NCBI RefSeq assembly: GCF_029909975.1
Contig: NZ_CP094516.1
Location: forward strand, 6,984,501-7,048,500
DNA length: 64,000 nt
Direction of reading: 5' to 3'
From: Bradyrhizobium sp. ISRA430
GTDB lineage: Bacteria; Pseudomonadota; Alphaproteobacteria; Rhizobiales; Xanthobacteraceae
In this document: positions 6,797 through 54,448 of the stretch, one piece after another
Numbering within the stretch: position 1 is the stretch's first letter
How the letters are laid out: every line of letters begins with the position of its first letter
Position numbers and translations under genes: made by a program
The notes under the pieces: generated by a model
What the model saw: only the letters and a program-made list of their open reading frames with translations
Told to the model about the DNA's origin: nothing
Databases searched by the model: none

Positions 6797-8920
6797 ATGA
6801 AAAATTCGCTTTTTCTCGCCGCGTCACTATCCATGAGCTGTTTGATGGCCGCGGGACTGTCCCAGACGCTAGCGCCTGCGACAGGCGCTGAGGATCCTTT
6901 TCTTTGGCTTGAGGAGATCGAAGGGCCGCGCGCATTGGCTTGGGCTCACACCGAGAACGACAAGACACTCAGCGCGCTCCAATCCGATCCACGTTACCAG
7001 CGCTTTTACGGGGAGGCGCTCCACGTTCTTCAGGCCAAGGACCGGATTCCGTACGTCTCATTGGGACGGCGCGGTCTCGATAATTTCTGGCAGGACGAGA
7101 ACCAGGTGCGCGGCGTCTTGCGGCGCACGACGCTTGAAAGCTATCGCACCCAGAGCCCGCGATGGGAGACCATCCTCGACGTGGATGCTCTCGCTGACGC
7201 GGACAAGAAGAACTGGGTCCTTAAAGGGGTGAGCTGCCTTCCGCCCGAAGAGCGCCTATGCTTGCTCAACCTGTCCGAGGGCGGAAAAGACGCTGTGTTC
7301 GTCCGTGAGTTCGACGCAGTTGCCAAAACCTTCGTCACGAACGGCTTCGAACTTCCCGAAGGAAAACAGGAGGTCACTTGGGTAAACAGCGACACGGTCC
7401 TAATTGCACGAGATTGGGGCGAAGGGACCATGACACAAGCCGGTTACCCTTTCGTTGTGAAGGAGCTCAAGCGCGCTCAGTCGCTCGCGGAAGCGCGCGA
7501 GGTCTTCCGTGGCGAGGCGACCGATGTCGGGGCCACTCCATTCGTGCTGCGCGACAGTGAAGGCAGGATCCATGCGACCGGCGCCGTGCGCGACATCAGT
7601 TCGTTCGAGCATGAGTATGTGCTCTTTGGGCCCGAGCCGATTAAGCTCAATCTGCCAAAGAAGGCAGCCATCGGCGGCATCGCCAGTGGTCGCCTGCTGG
7701 TGACGCTCAACGAAGACTGGATGCCACCGTCCGGAGACACCCCCTTCTCAGCCGGCTCGATCATCTCGTATGACCTGGCCGAATGGAAGCAGGATCCGCT
7801 GCGCGCCAGACCCACGCTCGTTTTCAAGCCTGGGCCTCGACAAGCGCTCAGCAGATTCACCGCCACAAGAAACTTGTTGATCCTGACGATTCTCGACAAT
7901 GTTCAGAGTAAGGCGTTCGTCTACAAGTACCATCAGGGCGCTTGGCGGGCCACGCCGATCCCGCTTCCAGAGAATGCGAGTGTCGGTCTGGCTGCAGCAT
8001 CGCATGAAACGGACGAGGCGATGTTCACGGTCTCCAGCTTTCTTAGCCCGACGATGCTCTGGTACTTCGACGCTGCAACCGAACGCCTTGAGACACTGAA
8101 GGCGACACCTCCTAGGTTCGACGCCTCGAGACTTGTCGTCGAACAATTCGAGGCAATCTCGCGCGATGGCACCCGCATTCCTTACTTTCTGCTACGACCC
8201 AAGAGCGCAAGGTTTGACGGATCAACTCCAACGCTTCTCTATGGCTATGGTGGGTTTCAGACTCCGCTCGTCCCCTCTTACGTGGGCCTCACCGGACGAC
8301 TCTGGCTCGAGCAGGGCAACGCGTATGTTGTGGCGAACCTGCGCGGCGGGGGTGAGTTCGGGCCCCAATGGCACCAGACTGCCCAAGGAGCAACGAAGCA
8401 GCGCACATGGGATGATTTTATCGCCGTCGCGGAGGACTTGATCCGGCGCAAAATCACTTCTCCCCGCCGGCTGGGCGTAGTCGGCGGTAGCCAAGGAGGC
8501 CTCCTGGTAGGGACCGCAATCACCCAACGACCCGAGCTCTTCAATGCGGCCATCTTACAGGTTCCGCTGTTCGACATGGTTCGGTTCACCAAGCTGGGCG
8601 CCGGAGCCTCCTGGATCGGCGAGTATGGCGATCCCACCATTCCCGAACAGCGCAAGTGGCTCGAGGCCTACTCGCCCTATCAGAGGTTGGTGCCAGGCAA
8701 GACCTACCCGGCCCCCTTCATTCTCACGTCCACAAAGGACGACCGCGTGCATCCAGCGCATGGCCGCAAGGCAGCGGCGAGGCTCGCTGCGTTGGGCCAA
8801 CCGTACCTCTACTATGAGAATACCGACGGGGGGCATAGCGCCGCCGCCAACCTCATTGAACAGGCACGCCGGATCTCTTTAGAATATACTTATGCATCCC
8901 GGCGGCTTGTCGATGAGTGA
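6797..8920 (+). CDS. Secreted prolyl oligopeptidase family serine peptidase (S9A)
   Basis: The product is 707 aa and starts with a hydrophobic signal peptide (residues ~1-31, ending near ATGAED), so it is probably exported. The N-terminal half is the beta-propeller typical of S9A enzymes (DPFLWLEEI start, WAHTEN). The C-terminal alpha/beta-hydrolase domain has the nucleophile motif GGSQGG with Ser565, the acid in TKDDRVHP (Asp648 or Asp649) and the catalytic His680 in DGGHSAA. Family members cleave short proline-containing peptides. The gene stands alone, with no operon partner on either side, and is one of the few intact genes in the first 16 kb. A role in degrading plant or host peptides is conceivable but not shown. 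Confidence 0.93.
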   Translation: MKNSLFLAASLSMSCLMAAGLSQTLAPATGAEDPFLWLEEIEGPRALAWAHTENDKTLSALQSDPRYQRFYGEALHVLQAKDRIPYVSLGRRGLDNFWQDENQVRGVLRRTTLESYRTQSPRWETILDVDALADADKKNWVLKGVSCLPPEERLCLLNLSEGGKDAVFVREFDAVAKTFVTNGFELPEGKQEVTWVNSDTVLIARDWGEGTMTQAGYPFVVKELKRAQSLAEAREVFRGEATDVGATPFVLRDSEGRIHATGAVRDISSFEHEYVLFGPEPIKLNLPKKAAIGGIASGRLLVTLNEDWMPPSGDTPFSAGSIISYDLAEWKQDPLRARPTLVFKPGPRQALSRFTATRNLLILTILDNVQSKAFVYKYHQGAWRATPIPLPENASVGLAAASHETDEAMFTVSSFLSPTMLWYFDAATERLETLKATPPRFDASRLVVEQFEAISRDGTRIPYFLLRPKSARFDGSTPTLLYGYGGFQTPLVPSYVGLTGRLWLEQGNAYVVANLRGGGEFGPQWHQTAQGATKQRTWDDFIAVAEDLIRRKITSPRRLGVVGGSQGGLLVGTAITQRPELFNAAILQVPLFDMVRFTKLGAGASWIGEYGDPTIPEQRKWLEAYSPYQRLVPGKTYPAPFILTSTKDDRVHPAHGRKAAARLAALGQPYLYYENTDGGHSAAANLIEQARRISLEYTYASRRLVDE

Positions 8921-9639
8921 GGTCGAGGACTAAGATCTACTTCAATGATGACGATTGGCGGACGACGTTATCGGCAGCGGCGTCAGCAAGCCCGTCTTTG
9001 CTCATTCTCCGCAGACTATGGTATCGCCCTGGGGATGAATCCGAGCGATCAGCTACGCCCTCACTCTCGCCTATCAGTCCGGGTAGGTCACTCAAGGCCG
9101 ATTTCTCGTTAATACCCACGAGGCCTTCCGTGTGAACAGCCCTCAGGGGCAAAGCCGGTGCGTTAGCCTCTTGATTCCGAGGCTAACTTCATTGGCAGTG
9201 CGGATGCGGATAGGGATAGCGCCTTGACTGAGAGCATGTCTGAGTGGTTGCAGGAATTTCCGTGGCAGATTGAGCGGATATTGATAACCCACACGCACCA
9301 TTGACCGACTGCGCAAAGACCTGTCAGCTTGCGGTAAGCTATCACAGATACAGAGCCCTTTGGGGTTAGCGGGATGTGGCAGGGACAGCGCTATTGCTCC
9401 AGATCGATCAGCGCCGAGTCACCTTTCCGCTAGTCTCAACGGCAGTGCGGATGTGGTAGGGACTAGTTGGCCTGGCTTCAGCCCCGGGTGGGTTAGGACC
9501 GAGCCGCACCCGCACTGTTTTACATCTCGCTCCGACCGATCGCGGTGGCTATCTCGACAAGCTTCGCAGGTACTCTGGCGAAGGTCGGTACACCACCTGA
9601 AAAGCTGAGGGCCACGTGCTTCCATTTCTGCCGCGACGC
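8921..9639. other. Gap with decayed sequence and a short repeated block
   Basis: No gene is supported. A 13-bp block, GGCAGTGCGGATG, occurs at 9194-9206 and 9441-9453, each followed by a similar TAGGGA stretch. A degenerate tts-box-like sequence lies at 9323-9350 (listed separately). Confidence 0.45.
9323..9350 (+). promoter_or_regulatory. Degenerate tts-box-like sequence
   Basis: GTCAGCTTGCGGTAAGCT matches the tts-box core at 15 of 18 positions by eye and ends in TA at the expected distance. The three mismatches fall in the central TCGAA block. No effector-like gene follows: the next gene, at 9761, is a transposon passenger type. It may be a relic promoter of a lost effector or a chance match. 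Confidence 0.3.
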
Positions 9640-44051: not shown

Positions 44052-44831
44052 ATGGCCGAGACACAGATCGAATGGACCGATGCCACCTGGAATCCCGTGG
44101 CAGGGTGTTCAATAGTCAGCGCCGGCTGCACCAACTGCTATGCCATGGAGATGGCGAGGCGCCTGCAGGCGATGAGCGTCCCTAAATACAAGGGGCTGAC
44201 TCGTCGAAGCGGCAAAAGAACCGTTTGGAACGGTGTCGTCCGTGAAGATGCGACGGCACTCGAGATTCCCCTGCGCTGGCGGAAGCCGCGGAAGATATTC
44301 GTCAATTCGATGTCGGATCTCTTCCATGATCGCGTTTCAGAGGCTTTCATCCTGAAGGTCTGGGACGTAATGGCTCGCACGCCGCACCACCACTATCAGA
44401 TCCTCAGCAAGCGCCCCGAGCGCATGGGAAAGTTCGTCGGATCGAAAATCCGGAAGGTGTTGCCGAACGTTTGGCTGGGGACCAGCGTTGAAAACGCTGA
44501 CGTGGTTCACCGCATAGACCACCTGCGATCCGCTCCTGCAGCGATCCGGTTCATATCGTTTGAACCTCTGATCGGCTTCGTCGGTCCGGTGAACCTCAGG
44601 GGTATCGATTGGGCTATCGTCGGGGGAGAAAGCGGTAAGTCGGCACGCCCGATCCGAGAGGAGTGGATCGACGAAATCTTCGACCGTTGCGCTGTGCATA
44701 ATACAGCGTTCTTTTTCAAGCAGTGGGGGACTTGGGGGAAGGACAACAAGCGCCGTTCTAAGAAAGCCAACGGGCGTATCTACCGCGACCAAGTTTGGGA
44801 TCAGATGCCCCTTGCGGCGCCCTTGTCCTGA
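44052..44831 (+). CDS. DUF5131 / phage Gp37-Gp68 family three-Cys-motif protein
   Basis: The product is 259 aa from an ATG behind GGAGGCGG. The N-terminus IEWTDATWNPVAGC with CSIVSAGCTNCYA forms the three-Cys cluster (C-x7-C-x2-C), which resembles a metal- or iron-sulphur-binding radical-SAM-like site. Further blocks are FVNSMSDLFHD, YQILSKRPERM, LGTSVEN, FEPLIG, WAIVGGESGKSARP and FFFKQWGTWG. Members occur in phages and mobile DNA, usually next to a three-Cys-motif partner protein, as here. The activity is not established; nucleic-acid or nucleotide modification is suspected. Confidence 0.92.
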   Translation: MAETQIEWTDATWNPVAGCSIVSAGCTNCYAMEMARRLQAMSVPKYKGLTRRSGKRTVWNGVVREDATALEIPLRWRKPRKIFVNSMSDLFHDRVSEAFILKVWDVMARTPHHHYQILSKRPERMGKFVGSKIRKVLPNVWLGTSVENADVVHRIDHLRSAPAAIRFISFEPLIGFVGPVNLRGIDWAIVGGESGKSARPIREEWIDEIFDRCAVHNTAFFFKQWGTWGKDNKRRSKKANGRIYRDQVWDQMPLAAPLS

Positions 44832-45019: not shown

Positions 45020-46279
45020 ATGAGTGGACAGTACGCCTGGAAGCTTGGTCGGCGTCCCCCCGTTCTGGGAGAGCATAGCCTCGCCAAGCACGAAATCTTC
45101 GAACACTACGTAAAGATCTACATCGATCGCGTCACGCGAAGCCCGGCTCAGACGATGCTCAACCTGACCATCGTCGACGGCTTTTGCGGCGGTGGGCTCT
45201 ACCGGTCGGGATCGAAAGAAGTAGACGGATCTCCCCTCCGGCTTTTGAAAGCCGTCGAGGCCGTGGACGAGGCGCTCTGCGCCGCCCGCTCGAAAGGGTT
45301 CGATCTGAGGGTCGACTTCTTTTTCATCGACGAGAAGCGTCACCATATCGAGTTTCTCAACGACGTGCTTCAAAAGCGCGGATACGGATCGAGACTTGGG
45401 CGGGATATCTTTGTTCGCAAGGCCCTCTTTCAGGAGGCGCTTCCCGATATCGTGGCTCACATCCGCAAGAAGGGCACGGCGCAGCGCTCGTTGTTTTTTC
45501 TGGACCAATACGGTTGGAGCGATGTCGCTTTGGGGACAATGCGCGAGGTCATGAGCTCGATCGAAAAGCCGGAAATCTTACTGACGTTCGCGGTCGATGC
45601 CCTGATCGATTTCCTTTCGGAAAAGACAGGCGAGACGCAGGCGCTCCTCAACGTCGAACTCGAGCGGGAAGATGTCCGCGAGTTGACAGGCATGCGCGAT
45701 GCCGATGGTTGGCGCTATCTAATTCAAAATGGTCTCTATCGCCACATTCGCGATCGGGCCGGAGCCCGTTTCTACACGCCCTTCTTTATTCGCTCGGTCG
45801 AGGCTCACCGATCATATTGGCTATTGCACCTGTCCAACCACCGGCAGGCGAGGGATGAAATGGGAAAGCTGCACTGGCGGCTGAACAACCATTTCCAACA
45901 TCATGGCGGGGCCGGTTTCCATGCTCTCGGTTTCGATCCGTCGAAGGATTTGCGCCAGGGCATGCTCACGTTCATGTTCGACGATGACGCTAGAAGGCGT
46001 TCGGAAGCTGCAGTCCTGGAACAGCTGCCACCCATGATTCATTCAGCCAGTAGGGCGGGACGCGGCCTCCTTGTGGAGGAGCTATTCGCCGGGAACTGCA
46101 ATGATACGCCTGTAACTTCGGAAATCCTCCAGAAGCAGCTCGTGCTCCTGCGGGACGAAGGAGAGCTGTCGATTATCGCCCCCGACGGCTCCAGAAAGCC
46201 GAGAGCAAAAACGATCGGATGGAGGGATCGCTTGTTCTTGCCTGAAGAGCGATCGTTATTCAGCAGGCTGGGTTTCTGA
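45020..46279 (+). CDS. Three-Cys-motif partner protein TcmP
   Basis: The product is 419 aa. It begins LGEHSLAKHEIFEHYVKIYI, followed by the glycine-rich TIVDGFCGGGLYRSG, which resembles motif I of SAM-dependent methyltransferases (compare VVDTHAGSGLYDL in the RlmJ at 51801). SLFFLDQYGWSD sits at the catalytic-loop position. The C-terminal ~120 residues include FHALGFDPSKD and LVEELFAG. TcmP is named for its constant pairing with DUF5131 proteins. A joint nucleic-acid modifying role is inferred, not shown. Confidence 0.9.
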   Translation: MSGQYAWKLGRRPPVLGEHSLAKHEIFEHYVKIYIDRVTRSPAQTMLNLTIVDGFCGGGLYRSGSKEVDGSPLRLLKAVEAVDEALCAARSKGFDLRVDFFFIDEKRHHIEFLNDVLQKRGYGSRLGRDIFVRKALFQEALPDIVAHIRKKGTAQRSLFFLDQYGWSDVALGTMREVMSSIEKPEILLTFAVDALIDFLSEKTGETQALLNVELEREDVRELTGMRDADGWRYLIQNGLYRHIRDRAGARFYTPFFIRSVEAHRSYWLLHLSNHRQARDEMGKLHWRLNNHFQHHGGAGFHALGFDPSKDLRQGMLTFMFDDDARRRSEAAVLEQLPPMIHSASRAGRGLLVEELFAGNCNDTPVTSEILQKQLVLLRDEGELSIIAPDGSRKPRAKTIGWRDRLFLPEERSLFSRLGF

Positions 46280-46583: not shown

Positions 46584-48494
46584 TTGTTTTCACTATTCGA
46601 TGCGGAGGGGGGCAATCCGCCGACCTCGCGGACGCGAGCGGTCCAACCCGTCCGCAAAAGTGCCGCGCCCGACCTCAATCTGTCGCCTATCCTCTCGCGG
46701 GACGCTCGAGTCCTATTTCTGGACGTCGAGACCACGGGCCTTAGTTGGTTCTACGACGAGATCACGATCATCGGCTGGGCCATCGACGGCACCTACAAGG
46801 TCCTGGTGAAGGGCGAGGACCCGGCCCCCTTGCTCAAGGATCTCGCCTCGGCTACCGTTCTGGTGACTTTTAACGGCACTCTGTTCGATCTTCGATTCCT
46901 TCAGAAGACGTTCGGCGATCTGGTGCTGCCGGGGATCCATGTCGACCTGCGTTACCTTTCACGCCGGATCGGACTCGCTGGTGGGCAGAAGAGGATCGAG
47001 AGGGAGCTCAAGATCGACTTCCGAAACGATCTCGATGACGTCGATGGCGCTGCAGCCGTGCTTCTGTGGCACGATTACCTGCGCGGAAGCCTGCCGGCGT
47101 TGCAGAAGCTCGTCCTGTACAATCGAAGCGACGTCCTTGGTATGGCAGCCATCTTGGACATCGTGATGGCTCGCCTCAATCTGCAGCGTGATTTCTGGCT
47201 TCAGCCTCAGGCGTTCGAGGAGATCGCCCGGCGCATCTTCGGTCAACCGGCCCCGATCATCTCGGACCGTGCGCTCCAACCCAGTGTCGTGTTCCGCAGC
47301 TTCGCGTCGATCTTCTCTGCTACTCCGGCCGAGCAGGCCCGGATCGTCGGCATCGATTTGACCGGTTCGGAGAAGCGCGGCTCCGGATGGTGTGTTCTAA
47401 ACGGTGCGGTCGCCGAGACGCTTACGGTGCATACCGATGAGGAGATGGTCGGTCGGATAATCGATCTCAAGCCGGATCTGGTCTCCATCGACTCCCCACT
47501 CTCGCTTCCGTTCGGACGCACCGTGGTCACCGACGATGATCCAGGTCGACAGCAGTACGGCATCATGCGCAAGTGCGAACGCGAGTTGAAGCGGCGCGGC
47601 GTCAACGTGTATCCGGCGCTGCTGCCGAGCATGCAGGGACTGACAAGGCGCGGCATGTTGCTGGCGGCCAGGATCCGAAGCGAAGGAGTCGCGGTCATCG
47701 AAAGCTATCCTGGCGCGGCCCAGGATATCATGGCGATCCCGCGCAAGGGAGCTGGGATCGAATATCTGAAGCGCGGCCTCTCCGATTTCGGTATCGAAGG
47801 ACGATATTTTTCGGAAGACGTCACGCATGATGAGCTCGACGCAATTACTGCCGCGTTGGTCGGCTCTTTCTTCCTCGCCGGCAAGTACGAAGCACTCTGC
47901 GGCCCGACCGAAGGCGCCTTGATCGTGCCGAAGCTGACCGACAGGATCGATGCTCCTCTCGTCGTGGGGATCAGCGGACGCATCTGCTCCGGAAAGACTA
48001 CCGCCGCCAGGATGCTGGAAGAACAGGGCTTCGCGTACACGCGATTTAGCCTGGTCATAGACGACGAGATCAGGGAAGCGGGACAGACTCCCGATCGCGC
48101 GACACGTCAGCAGTTCGGCGAGCGGATCCATAGCGAGAAGGGCCAGAGGTGGCTATGCGAGCGTGTCCTTCAACGCGTGGGAGGCCATAACCTGATCGTG
48201 ATTGATGGGCTTCGTTTCCCCGAGGACCGGGCGTATTTCGTGGAGACCTTCGGAGCCCGTTTCATCCATCTCCATATTTCCGCATCGGATGAGGTCCGCC
48301 GCGACAGATATGCAGAAGATGCATCCGTTTCGTTCGAGTCGGCCGACGATCAGCCGGTCGAGGCCGGTATCGGGCCGCTCGCGAAGTTGGCTCAGATCCA
48401 TTTGACGAATGAGGGAAGCTTGTCCGAGTTGAAACAGTCGCTAGATCAGGTCATCTCGGAGATCTCGAAGAGCGGCAAATGCCTGTCTCAGTAA
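46584..48494 (+). CDS. Fusion: RNase H-like exonuclease + DUF429 + nucleotide-kinase-like P-loop domain
   Basis: The product is 636 aa with a TTG start behind GGAG. Residues ~35-215 are a DnaQ/YprB-like exonuclease: VLFLDVETTGLSW supplies D-x-E, VTFNGTLFDLRFLQ the second Asp block, and YNRSDVLGM the last. Residues ~250-440 match DUF429, another RNase H-fold family (VGIDLTGSEKRGSGWCVL, VSIDSPLSLPFG, HDELDAITAALVG). Residues ~455-630 are a P-loop kinase like dNMP or dephospho-CoA kinases (VVGISGRICSGKTTAARMLE, IDGLRFPEDR). The stop overlaps the PurZ-like start by 16 bp, so the two are translated together. I know of no characterised protein with this order; nucleotide turnover or phage-DNA processing is inferred. 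Confidence 0.85.
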   Translation: MFSLFDAEGGNPPTSRTRAVQPVRKSAAPDLNLSPILSRDARVLFLDVETTGLSWFYDEITIIGWAIDGTYKVLVKGEDPAPLLKDLASATVLVTFNGTLFDLRFLQKTFGDLVLPGIHVDLRYLSRRIGLAGGQKRIERELKIDFRNDLDDVDGAAAVLLWHDYLRGSLPALQKLVLYNRSDVLGMAAILDIVMARLNLQRDFWLQPQAFEEIARRIFGQPAPIISDRALQPSVVFRSFASIFSATPAEQARIVGIDLTGSEKRGSGWCVLNGAVAETLTVHTDEEMVGRIIDLKPDLVSIDSPLSLPFGRTVVTDDDPGRQQYGIMRKCERELKRRGVNVYPALLPSMQGLTRRGMLLAARIRSEGVAVIESYPGAAQDIMAIPRKGAGIEYLKRGLSDFGIEGRYFSEDVTHDELDAITAALVGSFFLAGKYEALCGPTEGALIVPKLTDRIDAPLVVGISGRICSGKTTAARMLEEQGFAYTRFSLVIDDEIREAGQTPDRATRQQFGERIHSEKGQRWLCERVLQRVGGHNLIVIDGLRFPEDRAYFVETFGARFIHLHISASDEVRRDRYAEDASVSFESADDQPVEAGIGPLAKLAQIHLTNEGSLSELKQSLDQVISEISKSGKCLSQ

Positions 48495-49549
48495 TCGTTG
48501 GTGGCCAGTACGGTTCGGAAGGGAAAGGCAAGGTCGCGCTCGCGATTGCCCGCGGGAAGGGGGCTCGCTGCGTCATCCGCGTGGGCGGAACCAACTCAGG
48601 GCATACGATCGTCGACGAGTGCGGCAAGCCGCGTCCCTTCCGTCAGTTGCCAGCGTCCGTCTTCGCAAAGGATACGATCGCGGTACTCCCGCCTGGGGCC
48701 CTCATCGACGCCGAGATATTCGAGAGGGAAGTCGCCGAGCTCGGGTTGGGGCCGGACCGCGTCAAGGTCAGCCCATTTGCGAGCCTGATCTCCGCGGAGG
48801 ATCGTGAGGCGGAAAGATTGAGCGGGCTCGTCGATCGGATCGGGTCGACCGGATCGGGAACGGGTGCCGCGCTGGTACGCCGGATCGGCCGGGCCTCAAC
48901 GGTTCGTCTGGCGGGGGATGAACCGAGGTTGGGGCCTTATCTCGATGATACCGCTCAGCTGATGCGTGACGTTCTGGCCAAGGGGCAACGCATCGTCATC
49001 GAAGGATCGCAGGGATTCGGGCTTTCCGTGCTCCATGGAGGCTTCTACCCGCATGCAACCAGTCGGGACACAACAGCCGCCGCGTTCGTCTCGGAGGCTG
49101 GTCTGAGCCCGTTAGATGTCGACGAGATCGTGCTCGTCTTGCGCGCTCACCCGATCCGGGTAGCAGGTAATTCTGGCCAGCTCGAGGATGAGATGAGCTG
49201 GAAGGAACTCGCGATCGAAGCGGGCCTTGCCGAGGACTATAGAGAGCTTACCACCGCTACGAAAAAAGTCCGTCGTATCGGCCGTTTCGAGGTCGACGTC
49301 GTACGAAGGGCCATCGCCGCAAATCAGCCCACCTTGATCGTTCTGAACCATCTCGACTATGTCGATCCTGCCCTCGCCAAAGGCAAGCGAAGCAGCCTTG
49401 CGCGCGATTTTGTTGCGCGCGTGGAATCGCGAATTGGAGCAGCGGTGACGATGGTCGGATTCGGACCCGATTCGCTGGAACCGAGATCCGTTCTCGAAAA
49501 GGATGGCCGAACTCAACCCACCTCGAGGCAGTCCCTCAAAGCCGTCTGA
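48479..49549 (+). CDS. PurZ-like adenylosuccinate synthetase homologue (Asp to Ser at the catalytic position)
   Basis: The product is 356 aa, much shorter than housekeeping PurA (about 430). The P-loop reads GGQYGSEGKGK, where PurA has GDEGKGK: Ser13 replaces the catalytic Asp13. That exchange is the hallmark of PurZ, the phage enzyme that joins aspartate to dGMP on the way to 2-aminoadenine (Z). The second catalytic residue is kept (SGHTIV, His42), as are IEGSQGFGLSVLHGGFYPH and TSRDTTAAAFVSEAGL. Coupling to a kinase and exonuclease fusion fits deoxynucleotide metabolism better than de novo AMP synthesis. Whether the host makes dZTP, or uses the enzyme for signalling or defence, is unknown. 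It overlaps the 3' end of the opposite gene by 37 bp. Confidence 0.88.
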   Translation: MPVSVIVGGQYGSEGKGKVALAIARGKGARCVIRVGGTNSGHTIVDECGKPRPFRQLPASVFAKDTIAVLPPGALIDAEIFEREVAELGLGPDRVKVSPFASLISAEDREAERLSGLVDRIGSTGSGTGAALVRRIGRASTVRLAGDEPRLGPYLDDTAQLMRDVLAKGQRIVIEGSQGFGLSVLHGGFYPHATSRDTTAAAFVSEAGLSPLDVDEIVLVLRAHPIRVAGNSGQLEDEMSWKELAIEAGLAEDYRELTTATKKVRRIGRFEVDVVRRAIAANQPTLIVLNHLDYVDPALAKGKRSSLARDFVARVESRIGAAVTMVGFGPDSLEPRSVLEKDGRTQPTSRQSLKAV

Positions 49550-50262
49550 GAAATCCGTTCGATCGAAGCGGCCAGGACCTTCGCGTGCTCGTTCTGAGCC
49601 ACAATCCAAAAATGTCGACAGGATCCGCGACGCGCCAAGAAATGTCGAAGGAGCGGAGCATCGGGAAATCGCTCGCGGAATTTCGCCTTCAGTATGTCGG
49701 CTTGACGCGCGACCGTCGCCGTCCGGTTGAGGTGGTGATAGATGATCAGCGAATGTCCGGCATCCCAGAAATCGGCAACTTCGTTCCAGAAAACATATTT
49801 TCCGCTCTTTGGAGAGTGCCGGTGGACCGATGCCGTCTCTAGTCCGTTGTCCGGATCGAGAAAGACGAGCTGATGATCCTTCGCACTGTCCAACGCCTTC
49901 CTGAGCCAACTTGCACGCTGTCGGGCCCTTGCCGCACGAGGAAGTTTAATCTCGCTCTTCCGGTCAGAAATGATCTTGTCGAAGAAGGTCGTGTCCGGGG
50001 GCAGAATTCGCGATCTGGCGATTGCCCGAACGTTCCTTCGGTTGTTACTCACGATCTTCCCAAGCGCGGCGTGCAGGTCGGGATCCAGCCTGGCGAGACT
50101 TGGATCCTTGAGATAACTCACGTGGCGACCATCTGAATTGTGATCCTCGTCCGAGAACAGATACCAGATCACGGCCATTCGGAGCCTGGTGTGTTCAGCG
50201 ATCGCGCGAAGCAAGGCGAATTTCGCGAAGTCTCCAACGTCTCCGACGTATCGATTTTGCAC
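49513..50262 (-). CDS. Uncharacterised protein with QNRYVGDxGDF and FLDPDNG motifs
   Basis: The product is 249 aa with a GTG start. Its opening, MQNRYVGDVGDFAKFALLRA, and the central LVFLDPDNGLE are strongly patterned. FLDPDNG sits where methyltransferases have DPPY-type loops (compare VFLDPPFE in RlmJ), and IIYHHLNRTA follows. I do not recognise a named family; a Rossmann-like fold is guessed. It lies 27 bp behind the membrane dCTP-deaminase-fold gene in the same direction, so the two are an operon. Its end overlaps the PurZ-like gene antisense. Confidence 0.7.
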   Translation of the reverse strand: MQNRYVGDVGDFAKFALLRAIAEHTRLRMAVIWYLFSDEDHNSDGRHVSYLKDPSLARLDPDLHAALGKIVSNNRRNVRAIARSRILPPDTTFFDKIISDRKSEIKLPRAARARQRASWLRKALDSAKDHQLVFLDPDNGLETASVHRHSPKSGKYVFWNEVADFWDAGHSLIIYHHLNRTATVARQADILKAKFRERFPDAPLLRHFLARRGSCRHFWIVAQNEHAKVLAASIERISQTALRDCLEVG

Positions 50263-50289: not shown

Positions 50290-51453
50290 CTACGGTCTGC
50301 CCGCAGGAACGGTCCCGAGTTGCTTCTTCAAGACGTCGTTCTCCTTCTCCAAAGCCGTGACCCGCTGCTCCAGCGATTTGGCGATCGAAATCGCATCTGA
50401 TACATCTTTTCCCACTCCGGTCACCTTCGCGACACGCTCGTCCAGGGTCTTGAAGGAGGGCGGCACTATCCACTGCACGGCGACTGCCGCAAGCAGAGCG
50501 AAGCCGAGGCAGAAGGCTAGACTGCCATACCAATAGTTCCTCAAGAAGCGTCGAACCTCGCGAGCCGTCTGTGCGAGGACCGTAGGATAGCGATCGAGAT
50601 GTAGCCGGGCCAGGCGAAATTGAAGATGCGCGAAATAAGCCATCAGAAACGCCGCGACGGCGAGGCCCAGCGTTATAGGGCCCAACAGTGTCGCATACTC
50701 GTCGAGTGCGTTCGCTCCGGCTTTCGAGTAGATCGCCAAAAGAGTTAGTGCCATGGCGAACACCGCAAAGGATATTTGAGTGAATTGAATGAACCGCCCC
50801 TCCAACGTCTTCACAGACTCCTCGAATTCCTCGATCTTTCTACCGGCGCGCGTGAACAAGGCGCTTTGGAAGTCGATGATCTCGAATTCCTCAAGGATCA
50901 CGCGTTTGGGCGGCTGAGGATATCGGACGAGTTCGTCCTTTGGCTTGCCCGGGTCGAAATGCGTCGTCCGGGAAAAGTCCATGAGCGCCAGCTCTTGACC
51001 CTTGTACAAGGTGACGGGCTTGTCCGAGAGATTGTAGATGGGGCAGAAGAGGTACCCGGCGTAGCCCGGATCGACCTGTGGTCCTCCGACCCACAGCAGC
51101 CCGGCATAGGCATGTTTCACTCGGATGTTCCACCGCGCGATCATGAAGCGCGGTAGCCGCACCCTTTCTCCGGTCTTGATGACCGCTACCTCGAACGGCT
51201 GGATCGTGATGTGGCTCTCCAGCGGCAGGTACCGGCCCGACATGAAGTATTCCTCGCCCACCGTGAGCTCGTAGCCGGCGGGCTTGAGCAGCTCTTTCTT
51301 GAACGGCTCGATCATGTGGTGGTTTTGGGCGAAATAAGTGATCTGGTCACTCAGAAGGATGCCAGGCGAGCCCTGGATGGGATCCACCTCCAAGACGGGA
51401 TACTTCGTGATTTCGGCAAGCTCGTCAGCCCGCTTTTTAGCCAAATCTGCCAC
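50290..51453 (-). CDS. Membrane-anchored dCTP-deaminase/dUTPase-fold protein with C-terminal coiled coil
   Basis: The product is 387 aa. The start is GTG at 51453 because GGGAGG precedes it at 4 nt; longer frames have no ribosome site. Residues ~20-190 follow the Dcd pattern: ILLSDQI, MIEPF, KPAGYELTVGEEY, and PQVDPGYAGYLFCPIYNLSD aligned with the Dcd core IDPGxxGxLxLELxN. The deaminase Glu is replaced by Pro (CPIYN) while the Asp of VDPGY is kept. Three membrane helices follow (~235-257, ~268-293, ~320-345), then a coiled coil. Loss of the Glu argues for nucleotide binding or sensing, not deamination. It is paralogous to the 53303 gene. Confidence 0.8.
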   Translation of the reverse strand: MADLAKKRADELAEITKYPVLEVDPIQGSPGILLSDQITYFAQNHHMIEPFKKELLKPAGYELTVGEEYFMSGRYLPLESHITIQPFEVAVIKTGERVRLPRFMIARWNIRVKHAYAGLLWVGGPQVDPGYAGYLFCPIYNLSDKPVTLYKGQELALMDFSRTTHFDPGKPKDELVRYPQPPKRVILEEFEIIDFQSALFTRAGRKIEEFEESVKTLEGRFIQFTQISFAVFAMALTLLAIYSKAGANALDEYATLLGPITLGLAVAAFLMAYFAHLQFRLARLHLDRYPTVLAQTAREVRRFLRNYWYGSLAFCLGFALLAAVAVQWIVPPSFKTLDERVAKVTGVGKDVSDAISIAKSLEQRVTALEKENDVLKKQLGTVPAGRP

Positions 51454-51550
51454 TAAACCTCCCGTTTGATCGGAATCGCGGGACCGGTATACTACGGAGA
51501 TGGTTATCAGGAGAATATTGACCACCATAATCGGTCGGACCACCATCGCG

Positions 51551-51799
51551 ATGGACACGATCGAGGAAAATGCTCCGCCCGACCAAGGCGTCTATCATCA
51601 ACTGCCCCCGAGGACGTGGCGGAGAGCCGCCAGGTTGATCGAGCGTTTTGGCGCGGATGAAGCTCTGGCGGAGCTCGATCGGCGCGCGGAAAGTTGCGTG
51701 GATCGACGGGACGTGCCCTCCGCGATACGCTGGCGCAACGTGATGGCGGCCATTCATGCGATAAGTTCGGATGAGGGCGTCAAGAGCCGGATGAACTAG
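51551..51799 (+). CDS. Small conserved-looking hypothetical protein
   Basis: The product is 82 aa from the ATG at 51551 (MDTIEENAPP); an earlier start at 51500 is possible. A compact helical protein, with WRRAARLIERFGADEALAEL and IRWRNVMAAIHAIS, it resembles short proteins common in Bradyrhizobium genomes. It is divergent from the membrane Dcd-like gene and converges on rlmJ. Function is unknown. Confidence 0.55.
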   Translation: MDTIEENAPPDQGVYHQLPPRTWRRAARLIERFGADEALAELDRRAESCVDRRDVPSAIRWRNVMAAIHAISSDEGVKSRMN

Positions 51800-51800
51800 C

Positions 51801-52622
51801 CTAGCGCGGCCTGACCCACCATTCGGTGGAGTATCCGGATCCGCATTCCTCGAAGACCGGCACGAGAGCCTTGCAGATTGCGTGAACGTTCTTCTCGAAT
51901 TGCCAAGGTGGATTGCAGATCACTAAGCCGCTTCCGATCAGTCCTTCCCGACTCTTCGCATATGCGAGGAATTCGACGCAAAACGTCGGGACCGCCTCGA
52001 TGAGAAGTTTCTTGAACTTGGCGATCTGACTGCGTCCTGTGATCGGGTACCAGAGGGCGTAAGTACCAGTCGGCCATTTACGGAAGGCCGCATTGAGCGC
52101 CGCGGCTGCAAGCGAGAGTTCATCCGGTTTCTCGAACGGAGGATCCAGGAAGACCAGCCCGCGCCTTTCCTTGGGTGGAACGAACGTGTGCACCGCAGCG
52201 AATCCTTCTCGCTGGTGGACCCCGACGCGGCCGTCGCCTTCCATGGCTTCCTTGAGCCGCGCGGCTGCTCTGGCTTCCAACTCGCAGGCGACCAAGCGAT
52301 CTTCGCTCCGAAGCAGATGACGTATGATTGCCGGCGAACCCGGATAAACCTTTAGCCCGTCTGGATTGAAGTGCTCGATGACGCCGAGATATCGTTGCAG
52401 GGCTCGCGTCCGTTTTGGATAAACCAGTCGGATTCCACGATCAGCCTCGCCCGTTCGCATAGCTTCGGGTGATTCTAGGTCATAGAGACCAGACCCCGCG
52501 TGGGTGTCGACGACACAGATCGGCTTCGGCTTCAACTGAAGGTGATCGATCAGCGCGCAGAGCAAGGCATGTTTGAAGACCTCTGAATGATTGCCTGCAT
52601 GAAAGTCGTGACGATAGTTCAT
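51801..52622 (-). CDS. 23S rRNA (adenine-N6)-methyltransferase RlmJ
   Basis: The product is 273 aa, close to the usual length. The N-terminus MNYRHDFHAGNHSEVFKHAL, the SAM motif VVDTHAGSGLYDL, and the catalytic VFLDPPFEKPDEL are diagnostic of RlmJ, which methylates A2030 of 23S rRNA in E. coli. It stands alone on the minus strand. It may be the single housekeeping copy or an island-borne extra; the window cannot say. Confidence 0.92.
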   Translation of the reverse strand: MNYRHDFHAGNHSEVFKHALLCALIDHLQLKPKPICVVDTHAGSGLYDLESPEAMRTGEADRGIRLVYPKRTRALQRYLGVIEHFNPDGLKVYPGSPAIIRHLLRSEDRLVACELEARAAARLKEAMEGDGRVGVHQREGFAAVHTFVPPKERRGLVFLDPPFEKPDELSLAAAALNAAFRKWPTGTYALWYPITGRSQIAKFKKLLIEAVPTFCVEFLAYAKSREGLIGSGLVICNPPWQFEKNVHAICKALVPVFEECGSGYSTEWWVRPR

Positions 52623-53302: not shown

Positions 53303-54448
53303 ATGCCGCCTCCTAGCCATAACCCGCCTCCTGCGCCGGACCAGACCGACACGCTGACTTTCATTGCGGAGGTCGAGTTTGCTGATACGGAAGCTGTAGC
53401 CGAAATTCGCGCGGCTCGTTACCGGAAGAAGGACGTGGACATCGATCCATTTCCAGATATCCCGCCGGCGCTTTTGTCGTCCGAGCACGTCAAGGCCTAT
53501 GTCCGCCAGACCGGGATGATACACCCGTTCTCCGAAGGCCACCTCAAGTCTGCCTCGTACGAGGTCAAGCCAGGCGGACGCTTCATCTATTGGGATGAAA
53601 GCGGAAACAAGATATCCACGCTTGTGGCGAAGGACGGCACCATCACGCTGCCGCCAAATTCCATTAGTTTCGTTCAGATCGACACTACATTCCGCCTCCC
53701 TCAGTACATCGCAGTACGTTTCAACCTGCGCATAACGCATGTGCATAGAGGTCTTCTGCTCGGGACGGGCCCGCTGGTCGATCCTGGCTTTCACGGAAAA
53801 CTGCTTATCCCGCTTCACAACCTAACGTCGGATGAGTACACCATCCGAGGCGACGAGGGACTGATATGGATGGAATTCACGAAAACCTCGCACGAGGCGC
53901 AGCGTGGTTTCGTCAAGGACTTCGTTCCCGAGGAGTTCGAGAAGACCGATCCGACCAAGAACTTCCAGCCTCCAGAGTACTACTTTGACCGCGCGAGCAA
54001 GAACCGGCCGATCAGAAGCTCGATCCCCGGCGTAGTCGCGGAGGCTCGTTCTCAGGCAAAGGAGGCGGTGGACGCGGCGAGGAGAGCTGAGCGATCGAAC
54101 ACAATCTTCGTAGGAGGCGGGTTGCTGGCTGTCGCTGGTCTAGTCGTGGGCTTGTTCTCCTTTTTCGAATCCGTCAAGGCGAATGCCATAGCTGCCTACA
54201 CTCTCGCGACGACCGTCTCTACCGCCGCGATGCAGGCCGGTACCGACGCGAAAAAAGCGCAAGACGATGTGAAGGACATTCGTAACACCGTCGACGCCAA
54301 CAGCGCTAGGATTTCCGCTGATGAAGTACGACGCTTGCGCGAGCAGCTCGATGACACCCGGGTAGAAGTCCAGGTTCTGCGCCGTGAAATGGATTCCATA
54401 ATTGAACGGAGCGGGGCCAAGACGAAGGGCGTGGACGAAGCCAAGTAA
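53303..54448 (+). CDS. Second membrane-anchored dCTP-deaminase/dUTPase-fold protein
   Basis: The product is 381 aa. Residues ~55-215 align with the 50290 product and with Dcd: LLSSEHV, MIHPFSEGHLKSASYEVKPG, GPLVDPGFHGKLLIPLHNLT. The deaminase Glu is again replaced by Pro (LIPLHN) and the VDPG Asp kept. One membrane helix (~270-292) follows a helical linker, then a long coiled coil to the end (AQDDVKDIRNTVDANSARIS, LREQLDDTRVEVQVLRREMD). The shared substitution in both paralogues points to a conserved non-deaminase function. There is no signal peptide, so the nucleotide-fold domain is probably cytoplasmic. Confidence 0.8.
   Translation: MPPPSHNPPPAPDQTDTLTFIAEVEFADTEAVAEIRAARYRKKDVDIDPFPDIPPALLSSEHVKAYVRQTGMIHPFSEGHLKSASYEVKPGGRFIYWDESGNKISTLVAKDGTITLPPNSISFVQIDTTFRLPQYIAVRFNLRITHVHRGLLLGTGPLVDPGFHGKLLIPLHNLTSDEYTIRGDEGLIWMEFTKTSHEAQRGFVKDFVPEEFEKTDPTKNFQPPEYYFDRASKNRPIRSSIPGVVAEARSQAKEAVDAARRAERSNTIFVGGGLLAVAGLVVGLFSFFESVKANAIAAYTLATTVSTAAMQAGTDAKKAQDDVKDIRNTVDANSARISADEVRRLREQLDDTRVEVQVLRREMDSIIERSGAKTKGVDEAK

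Follow-up and report, generated by a model that had tools for sequence, protein, structure and literature searches.

A Ser-type relative of adenylosuccinate synthetase in a conserved accessory operon of bacterial DNA-precursor genes, with a possible role in 2-aminoadenine nucleotide synthesis

Phage PurZ is a relative of the adenylosuccinate synthetase PurA that converts deoxyguanosine monophosphate (dGMP) to N6-succino-2-amino-dAMP, and host enzymes complete the synthesis of the 2-aminoadenine deoxynucleoside triphosphate dZTP (PMC12884076, PMC8342488). When the phage Z-cluster is expressed in Escherichia coli it is toxic, with an average replacement of A of 12.1% in plasmid and 3.9% in chromosomal DNA (PMC8342488). 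In phages of the PurZ0 type the synthetase is accompanied by dUTPase-like enzymes, which turn dATP and dGTP into the monophosphates, and in the tree published in 2026 the PurZ group comprises 147 phage and four archaeal sequences (PMC12884076). Some PurZ sequences with bacterial names are suspected to be viral (PMC8342488). Here we describe a PurZ-like gene located at 48479-49549 (+ strand) of a 64,000-nucleotide stretch of the chromosome of Bradyrhizobium sp. ISRA430 (NZ_CP094516.1, positions 6,984,501 to 7,048,500; hereafter the window). The gene belongs to an accessory, patchily distributed and conserved operon of DNA-precursor genes present in many bacterial phyla, often with phage-defence genes nearby, and its product represents a mainly bacterial Ser-type lineage of its own rather than a chance copy from one of the characterised phages. 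The enzyme is a variant of the known PurZ-type enzymes, and no counterpart of the operon as a system was found in the open-access literature, where no bacterial PurZ operon is described in the titles and abstract openings covered; because subscription journals lie mostly outside this coverage, absence is not proven.

The PurZ-like (Ser-type) adenylosuccinate synthetase paralogue has 356 amino acids, counted from an ATG start, and its N-terminus is MPVSVIVGGQYGSEGKGK. The translation of the open reading frame (ORF) bears out the features that the original prediction had read from the DNA, namely GSEGKGK in place of the GDEGKGK of PurA, the retention of His42 (within TNSGHT) and the length of the protein. 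The catalytic Asp13 of PurA thus corresponds to Ser13. The Asp-to-Ser switch is not an isolated change: 119 of the 120 homologues listed, query included, fit GGQ[FY]GSEGKGK, and the remaining one has GSEGKGK with a variant first part. When 84,980 species genomes were scanned, 405 relatives were obtained; some of them may lie outside the query clade, and the genomic-locus counts reported here rest on the best 80. Two patterns were used for the scan, one of which held the Ser while the other, EG[ST]QGFGLS, was without it; owing to the first pattern, the scan leans to Ser. The motif G[SG]E.KG was found in all 80 loci (73 with Ser and 7 with Gly) and GDE in none, and the catalytic residues other than Asp13 were retained across the 80. 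At a threshold of 1e-10, 4517 of 8000 scored proteins matched, a set that may include Asp-type enzymes.

The possibility that this is the housekeeping PurA was rejected, because a separate full-length PurA (581 bits) is encoded on the same 8.56-Mb chromosome at C1:4419369-4420622. The chromosomal setting proposed for the PurZ-like gene is borne out, and for this genome the proviso that the host might have no other PurA falls away. Twenty other genomes with a relative, picked from the 80 loci for their long contigs, each encode a full PurA elsewhere as well (565 to 621 bits). The PurZ-like protein matches Pfam PF00709 at 3e-44 and PHROG 1211, described as 2-aminooxy adenylosuccinate synthetase, at 1e-67. 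Its best NCBIfam score is that of archaeal-type PurA (NF003295; 256.3 bits, under the cut-off of 368), followed by phage PurZ (NF038379; 225.9 bits, under the cut-off of 300) and bacterial PurA (165 bits, under the cut-off of 396). The best structural match is likewise archaeal PurA, a ranking that cannot decide between PurA and PurZ0. None of the PADLOC 2023 families matched the protein at an E-value of 0.01.

In order to place the protein among PurA, PurZ and PurZ0, a careful tree of 83 rows was built, with the long-branched L183 and the too gappy L089 excluded. The phages AustinPowers and Galactica were labelled as PurZ0 from their clade and neighbours, the other PurZ0 phage being Ghobes and the PurZ0 structure PDB 7vf6. 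Seven Asp-type rows (six archaeal PurA and one antibiotic-cluster enzyme) were split with 100/100 support from 76 Ser/Gly rows, which excludes a placement inside ordinary PurA. When the genome's own PurA was added, the eight Asp-type rows, named by hand, stood together at 100/99, and one change from Asp to Ser/Gly suffices to explain the tree. The query clade has 38 rows (100/99), composed of 31 bacterial rows and seven IMG/VR loci. Separate groups were formed by phage PurZ together with Bacillus phage BpsS-140 (100/97), by PurZ0 (100/100, without any A-clade row) and by a second bacterial family, B (100/100), which is sister to phage PurZ at 91/88; because the query clade is distinct from all three, we treat it as a Ser-type lineage of its own. 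Unlike the archaeal-type short PurA (PRK04293, P. horikoshii 5k7x), the query has Asp13 replaced, scores under the 368-bit cut-off and lies across the 100/100 branch. An archaeal origin of the alternative pathway has reportedly been discussed by Tong et al. 2023.

The residues to which roles have been assigned in PurZ (PMC8342488) were compared in the tree rows, using the numbering of S-2L. At the position of Asp13, the A-clade rows (n = 31) have 29 Ser and 2 Gly. Position 235 is Arg in all 31 A rows (Arg222 in the query), in 6/6 PurZ and in 3/3 PurZ0, and Lys in 6/6 archaeal PurA and in the genome's own PurA. Position 273, in the aspartate loop, is Thr in 28 and Ser in 3 of the 31 A rows (Thr258 in the query), Thr in all nine phage rows and Gly in PurA, and position 305 is Asn in 31/31 A rows and 6/6 PurZ (Asn290 in the query). 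The query therefore resembles the PurZ of phiVC8 and S-2L (deoxyguanylosuccinate synthase) in the Ser that replaces the catalytic Asp, in the Arg/Thr/Asn set at 235/273/305 and in the retention of the His that is His52 in S-2L. It differs from it at position 308, the adenine-donor position, which is Gln or Asn in PurZ (Q308 in S-2L) and Asp in 31/31 A rows; this residue, Asp293 of the query at the purine-donor site, is shared with PurA and PurZ0. The loop near the ribose, PIRV.G.SG, was found by pattern in 73 of the 80 loci (PIRVAGNSG in the query), as in PurZ0, from which the protein is otherwise separated by the tree. Taken together, Ser or Gly in place of the Asp and a ribose loop like that of PurZ0 suggest a guanine deoxynucleotide as the putative substrate. 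The original comparison with phage PurZ is inexact: the protein belongs to neither PurZ nor PurZ0, lies in a clade of its own, scores 226 against the required 300 bits and has Asp at the donor-base position.

The gene immediately upstream (46584-48494, + strand, 636 amino acids) was confirmed to be the kinase-like fusion that had been proposed: by Pfam and PHROG it joins an RNase_H_2 (3'-5' exonuclease-like) domain, DUF429 and a deoxynucleoside monophosphate (dNMP) kinase-like domain. Its DUF429 match is weak (21.5 bits, cut-off 23); PHROG assigns dNMP kinase to the protein and DNA polymerase to its nuclease part, and the kinase part has a further match, to the dCTPase model of PADLOC (4.2e-8 over 137 residues). 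The 3' end of the fusion overlaps the start of the PurZ-like gene by 16 nucleotides. Clustering of the ORFs of the 80 loci showed that this arrangement recurs, with the PurZ-like protein in 79, a DCD-fold protein in 78, the RNase_H_2-DUF429-kinase fusion in 73, a deoxynucleoside kinase (dNK) of 202 amino acids in 27 and a protein that we named YVGD in 19. PF01712 was found in both members of the dNK cluster that were scanned, and a further dNK is encoded in L036. The fusion lies directly upstream: in 67 of the 72 cases where it shares a strand with the PurZ-like gene, it ends -40 to +60 nucleotides from the start of that gene (median 0). Of the 76 cases in which the DCD gene is on the same strand, 62 have its start no more than 150 nucleotides past the PurZ-like stop. 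Two nuclease families, RNase_H_2 and HHH_8+PHP, precede the same DUF429-kinase part, and weak DNA_pol_B_exo1 matches also occur among the nuclease domains of the fusions. The replacement of RNase_H_2 by HHH_8 + PHP, with the kinase retained, was seen in L027 (6224-8983) and L088 (2405-5158), and the same length and motif pattern in L053, L078, L079, L080 and L089. All the partner families, namely the dNMP kinase, RNase_H_2 or HHH_8+PHP, the DCD/dUTPase fold and dNK, concern DNA or deoxynucleotides.

The window encodes two DCD-fold proteins, both farther from the PurZ-like stop than usual. DCD1 (50290-51558, - strand, 422 amino acids, PF22769) has hydrophobic C-terminal segments, and DCD2 (53303-54448, + strand, 381 amino acids) has a hydrophobic helix, membrane-spanning by eye, and a long C-terminal helix. 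The partner proved to have the DCD/dUTPase fold, and the operon DCD-fold protein is probably membrane-anchored. In L056, L065 and L066 it is nearer to DCD1, and in most other loci nearer to DCD2. The recurrent DCD-fold protein and the dCTPase match of the fusion kinase recall nucleotide-depleting defence by dCTP deaminase or dCTPase, from which the operon differs in the probable membrane anchor of this protein and in having Pro for the deaminase Glu and RFN for the RSS motif. The Glu, which we take to be E138 of the catalytic site of E. coli dCTP deaminase, is replaced in the column aligned to 4xjc, and Pro170 is invariant in the 31 sequences of A2. Deaminase activity was dropped as a candidate function because the Glu is absent; in the PADLOC scan, neither DCD protein of the window matched the dCTP deaminase model.

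The convergent YVGD gene (49513-50262, - strand, 249 amino acids) encodes a protein of no known family with the motifs YVGDVGD and FLDPDNGLE, and a Pfam scan gave no match for it. A relationship to RlmJ, suggested by eye, was dropped after a profile comparison gave it a probability of 2.2%. An actual RlmJ-family gene (PF04378) lies in the window at 51801-52622, and eight of the 80 loci (L012, L013, L016, L018, L020, L021, L070 and L074) have RlmJ-family matches close to the operon.

The 80 loci span 15 named phyla, with 49 from Pseudomonadota, 7 from Bacillota, 6 from Thermodesulfobacteriota and 3 from Cyanobacteriota; a further 12 come from eleven other phyla and 3 have no phylum assigned. 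The distribution is patchy. In a phylum sample, 5 of 398 genomes matched at 1e-25, the own genome included. In Bradyrhizobium, 8 of 146 genomes matched at 1e-40, four of them (own genome included) with the query family and four with the second Ser-type family. A relative in B. ivorense (L012) is 97% identical to the query. The fusion and the DCD protein occur in exactly those four of the 146 genomes that have the PurZ-like gene of the query family, so that the three travel together as a block.

In the second Ser-type family, B, one ORF encodes both a P-loop kinase-like domain and a PurZ of the Ser type (L008-L011, L173, L174, L188 and L189). Such ORFs occur on chromosomes and on rhizobial plasmids; those of L173 and L174 both lie at 7449-9062, and the kinase part of L173 has a sub-cut-off match to AAA_18. 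In L173 the ORF is followed by a DUF7002 gene and an HD/YfbR-like gene. HD/YfbR-like proteins also adjoin the A-type gene in L023, L026 and L172. The four bacterial HD matches (L023, L026, L172 and L173) are under the Pfam cut-offs, and the phage DatZ proteins of L176 and L181, of the same family, are above them; a DatZ-like role of the bacterial proteins is possible. Neither datZ nor mazZ was recognised among the clusters recurring in at least four of the 80 loci, where no direct search for either was made. The operon resembles the phage Z-cluster (datZ, mazZ, purZ) in that a PurZ-type enzyme is packaged with deoxynucleotide-pool genes, and differs from it in its partners, which include kinases of its own and an HD/YfbR-like protein in some loci only.

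Two candidate defence genes lie upstream of the core operon in the window, one encoding the three-Cys-motif partner protein TcmP (45020-46279, + strand; TIGR04474, 1.8e-59; PADLOC PDC-M30A, 8.9e-26) and the other, beside it, a DUF5131 protein (44052-44831, + strand; PF07505, 2.9e-98; PADLOC PDC-M41B/M30B). The surroundings of the operon were compared using PADLOC at a threshold of 1e-15, with ORFs from a simple caller and genes of up to 1100 amino acids. In each of 20 loci the seven genes closest to the operon, with operon-like genes set aside, were taken as the flank sample (140 genes in total). The control comprised 138 genes from other parts of those contigs, two of the 140 first selected having been removed because of total size. 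Matches to 188 PADLOC families were found in the flanks, against 9 in the controls, and none of these 9 was a type I restriction-modification (RM) model. Among the families listed (25 of the 188 for the flanks), the top single ones were matched by 6 of the 140 flank genes (type I specificity and methyltransferase subunits, and mad5) and by 3 of the 138 control genes (mad3). The figures count families and not genes, the models are redundant and related Sphingomonadales account for several of the loci that carry HsdR and HsdS, which makes the signal an enrichment and not a proof; to that extent the suggested link to defence is supported. The GC content of the window shows no clear island, and a tRNA search of the window found none. 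Apart from these loci, a Rhizobium leguminosarum plasmid (L175, 7375-15715) carries Asp-type PurA-like and PurB-like genes with folE, queC, queE and genes for 6-carboxytetrahydropterin synthase, nitrile hydratase, an IMP dehydrogenase-like protein and a phosphoribosyltransferase. This looks like a 7-deazapurine nucleoside cluster, presumably of the toyocamycin type.

On the basis of these sequences, the module probably modifies deoxynucleotides, probably dGMP, and is probably defensive. PurZ0 phages carry dutZ and often dmtZ (PMC12884076), instead of which the bacterial operon has the nuclease, DUF429, the kinase and the DCD-fold membrane protein. Because this set of a synthetase, a dUTPase/DCD fold, kinases and nucleases is comparable to that of the PurZ0 phages, we favour a defence in which 2-amino-dA nucleotides are synthesised on demand. 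The PurZ-like enzyme would ligate aspartate to a deoxynucleotide with a 2-amino purine base, dGMP being the likeliest, to give N6-succino-2-amino-dAMP, with GTP as the probable phosphate donor; dZMP would then be released by the PurB of the host. Feeding of the pathway and phosphorylation of its products may fall to the fused kinase, joined in some loci by the deoxynucleoside kinase. On infection, the nuclease/DUF429 part may supply or control dNMPs, and the 2-aminoadenine nucleotides that the PurZ-like enzyme makes from dGMP would interfere with the synthesis of phage DNA. The DCD-fold protein, tethered to the membrane, would serve to sense the nucleotide pool or to trim it. That a bacterial, non-housekeeping PurZ-type enzyme in an accessory DNA-precursor operon makes 2-aminoadenine nucleotides from dGMP as an anti-phage or anti-mobile-element module is a reading to which we give a little less than even confidence. 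A more ambitious version, that of a mobile immune operon in many phyla which, when needed, converts dGMP to 2-aminoadenine deoxynucleotides and employs these, along with its own nuclease, kinases and a membrane DCD protein that binds nucleotides, to poison or mark invading DNA, is put forward only tentatively.

The best-surviving alternative, which we consider unlikely, is repair or salvage of the nucleotide pool, in which the PurZ-like enzyme would act on another odd purine deoxynucleotide (deaminated or oxidised, for instance) and its partners would recycle damaged precursors, with neither 2-aminoadenine nor defence involved. The partners are indeed precursor or DNA-processing enzymes, dNK suggests salvage, and the nuclease domains recall those used in proofreading (PHROG DNA polymerase, weak DNA_pol_B_exo1, or HHH_8+PHP). 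However, the presence in only 4 of 146 genomes of the genus and the defence-gene neighbours would be unusual for housekeeping repair, and the active-site features described above indicate a guanine deoxynucleotide. Somewhat less probable is self-modification, in which the operon would make dZTP and place some 2-aminoadenine in host or plasmid DNA, thus altering restriction sensitivity alongside type I systems. The phage Z-cluster genes do place Z in E. coli DNA (PMC8342488), DNA with 2-aminoadenine is partially resistant to restriction enzymes (PMC12884076), type I RM genes recur beside the operon and one relative is located on a conjugative plasmid. The toxicity and the low chromosomal replacement seen in E. 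coli (PMC8342488) argue against this explanation, as does the lack of a recognised gene for a Z-selective polymerase (no direct DpoZ search was made), and it leaves the nuclease and the membrane-anchored DCD unexplained.

We give little credence to an ordinary PurA paralogue that still uses IMP and has lost the Asp by drift. The common fold, the preference for archaeal PurA in structure and NCBIfam, and Asp293 would agree with it, but drift does not fit the finding that all 80 loci have Ser or Gly and keep the remaining catalytic residues, nor the 100/99 branch between the Ser/Gly and Asp-type rows, nor the separate full PurA in every genome tested.

A viral search with the single protein gave no match, and one with the alignment found IMG/VR loci, some in further lineages outside the query clade. 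The fusion had no match in any of 80 IMG/VR loci; among the partners only the DCD was matched, in seven of these loci and with scores of 41 to 52 bits. Viral contigs L095 (312 kb), L096 (250 kb) and L102 carry PurZ-like genes inside the bacterial clade, without the bacterial partners; an RtcB gene lies two genes on from the PurZ-like gene in L095, and a thymidylate synthase gene adjoins it in L102. Among 10 neighbours from eight IMG/VR loci, four had clear or fair Pfam matches (RtcB, 5'-3' exonuclease, methyltransferase and thymidylate synthase), and the remaining six had none or sub-cut-off ones. A phage-only origin was rejected on account of the missing fusion and the weak DCD matches, and a gene of a phage or integrated element, in spite of the seven IMG/VR loci inside the query clade and a relative of 51.5% identity on plasmids, is just as improbable as PurA drift, given that at least seven bacterial copies (that of the window included) are on contigs of 2 to 8.6 Mb and that none of the 14 gene clusters recurring in at least four of the 80 loci resembled a phage structural gene (some judged by eye).

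Should the more ambitious version be true, the chemistry of phage Z genomes would have a counterpart in bacterial immunity. In the accessible portions of the literature, Z-nucleotide synthesis has so far been treated as a trait of phages and a few archaeal relatives (PMC12884076, PMC8342488), and a Ser-type clade with a conserved operon in bacteria of 15 named phyla is a branch unreported in the 2026 set, as far as the accessible part of that source extends (PMC12884076). Whether 2-aminoadenine nucleotides are made by bacteria, and for what purpose, becomes a question that can be tested.

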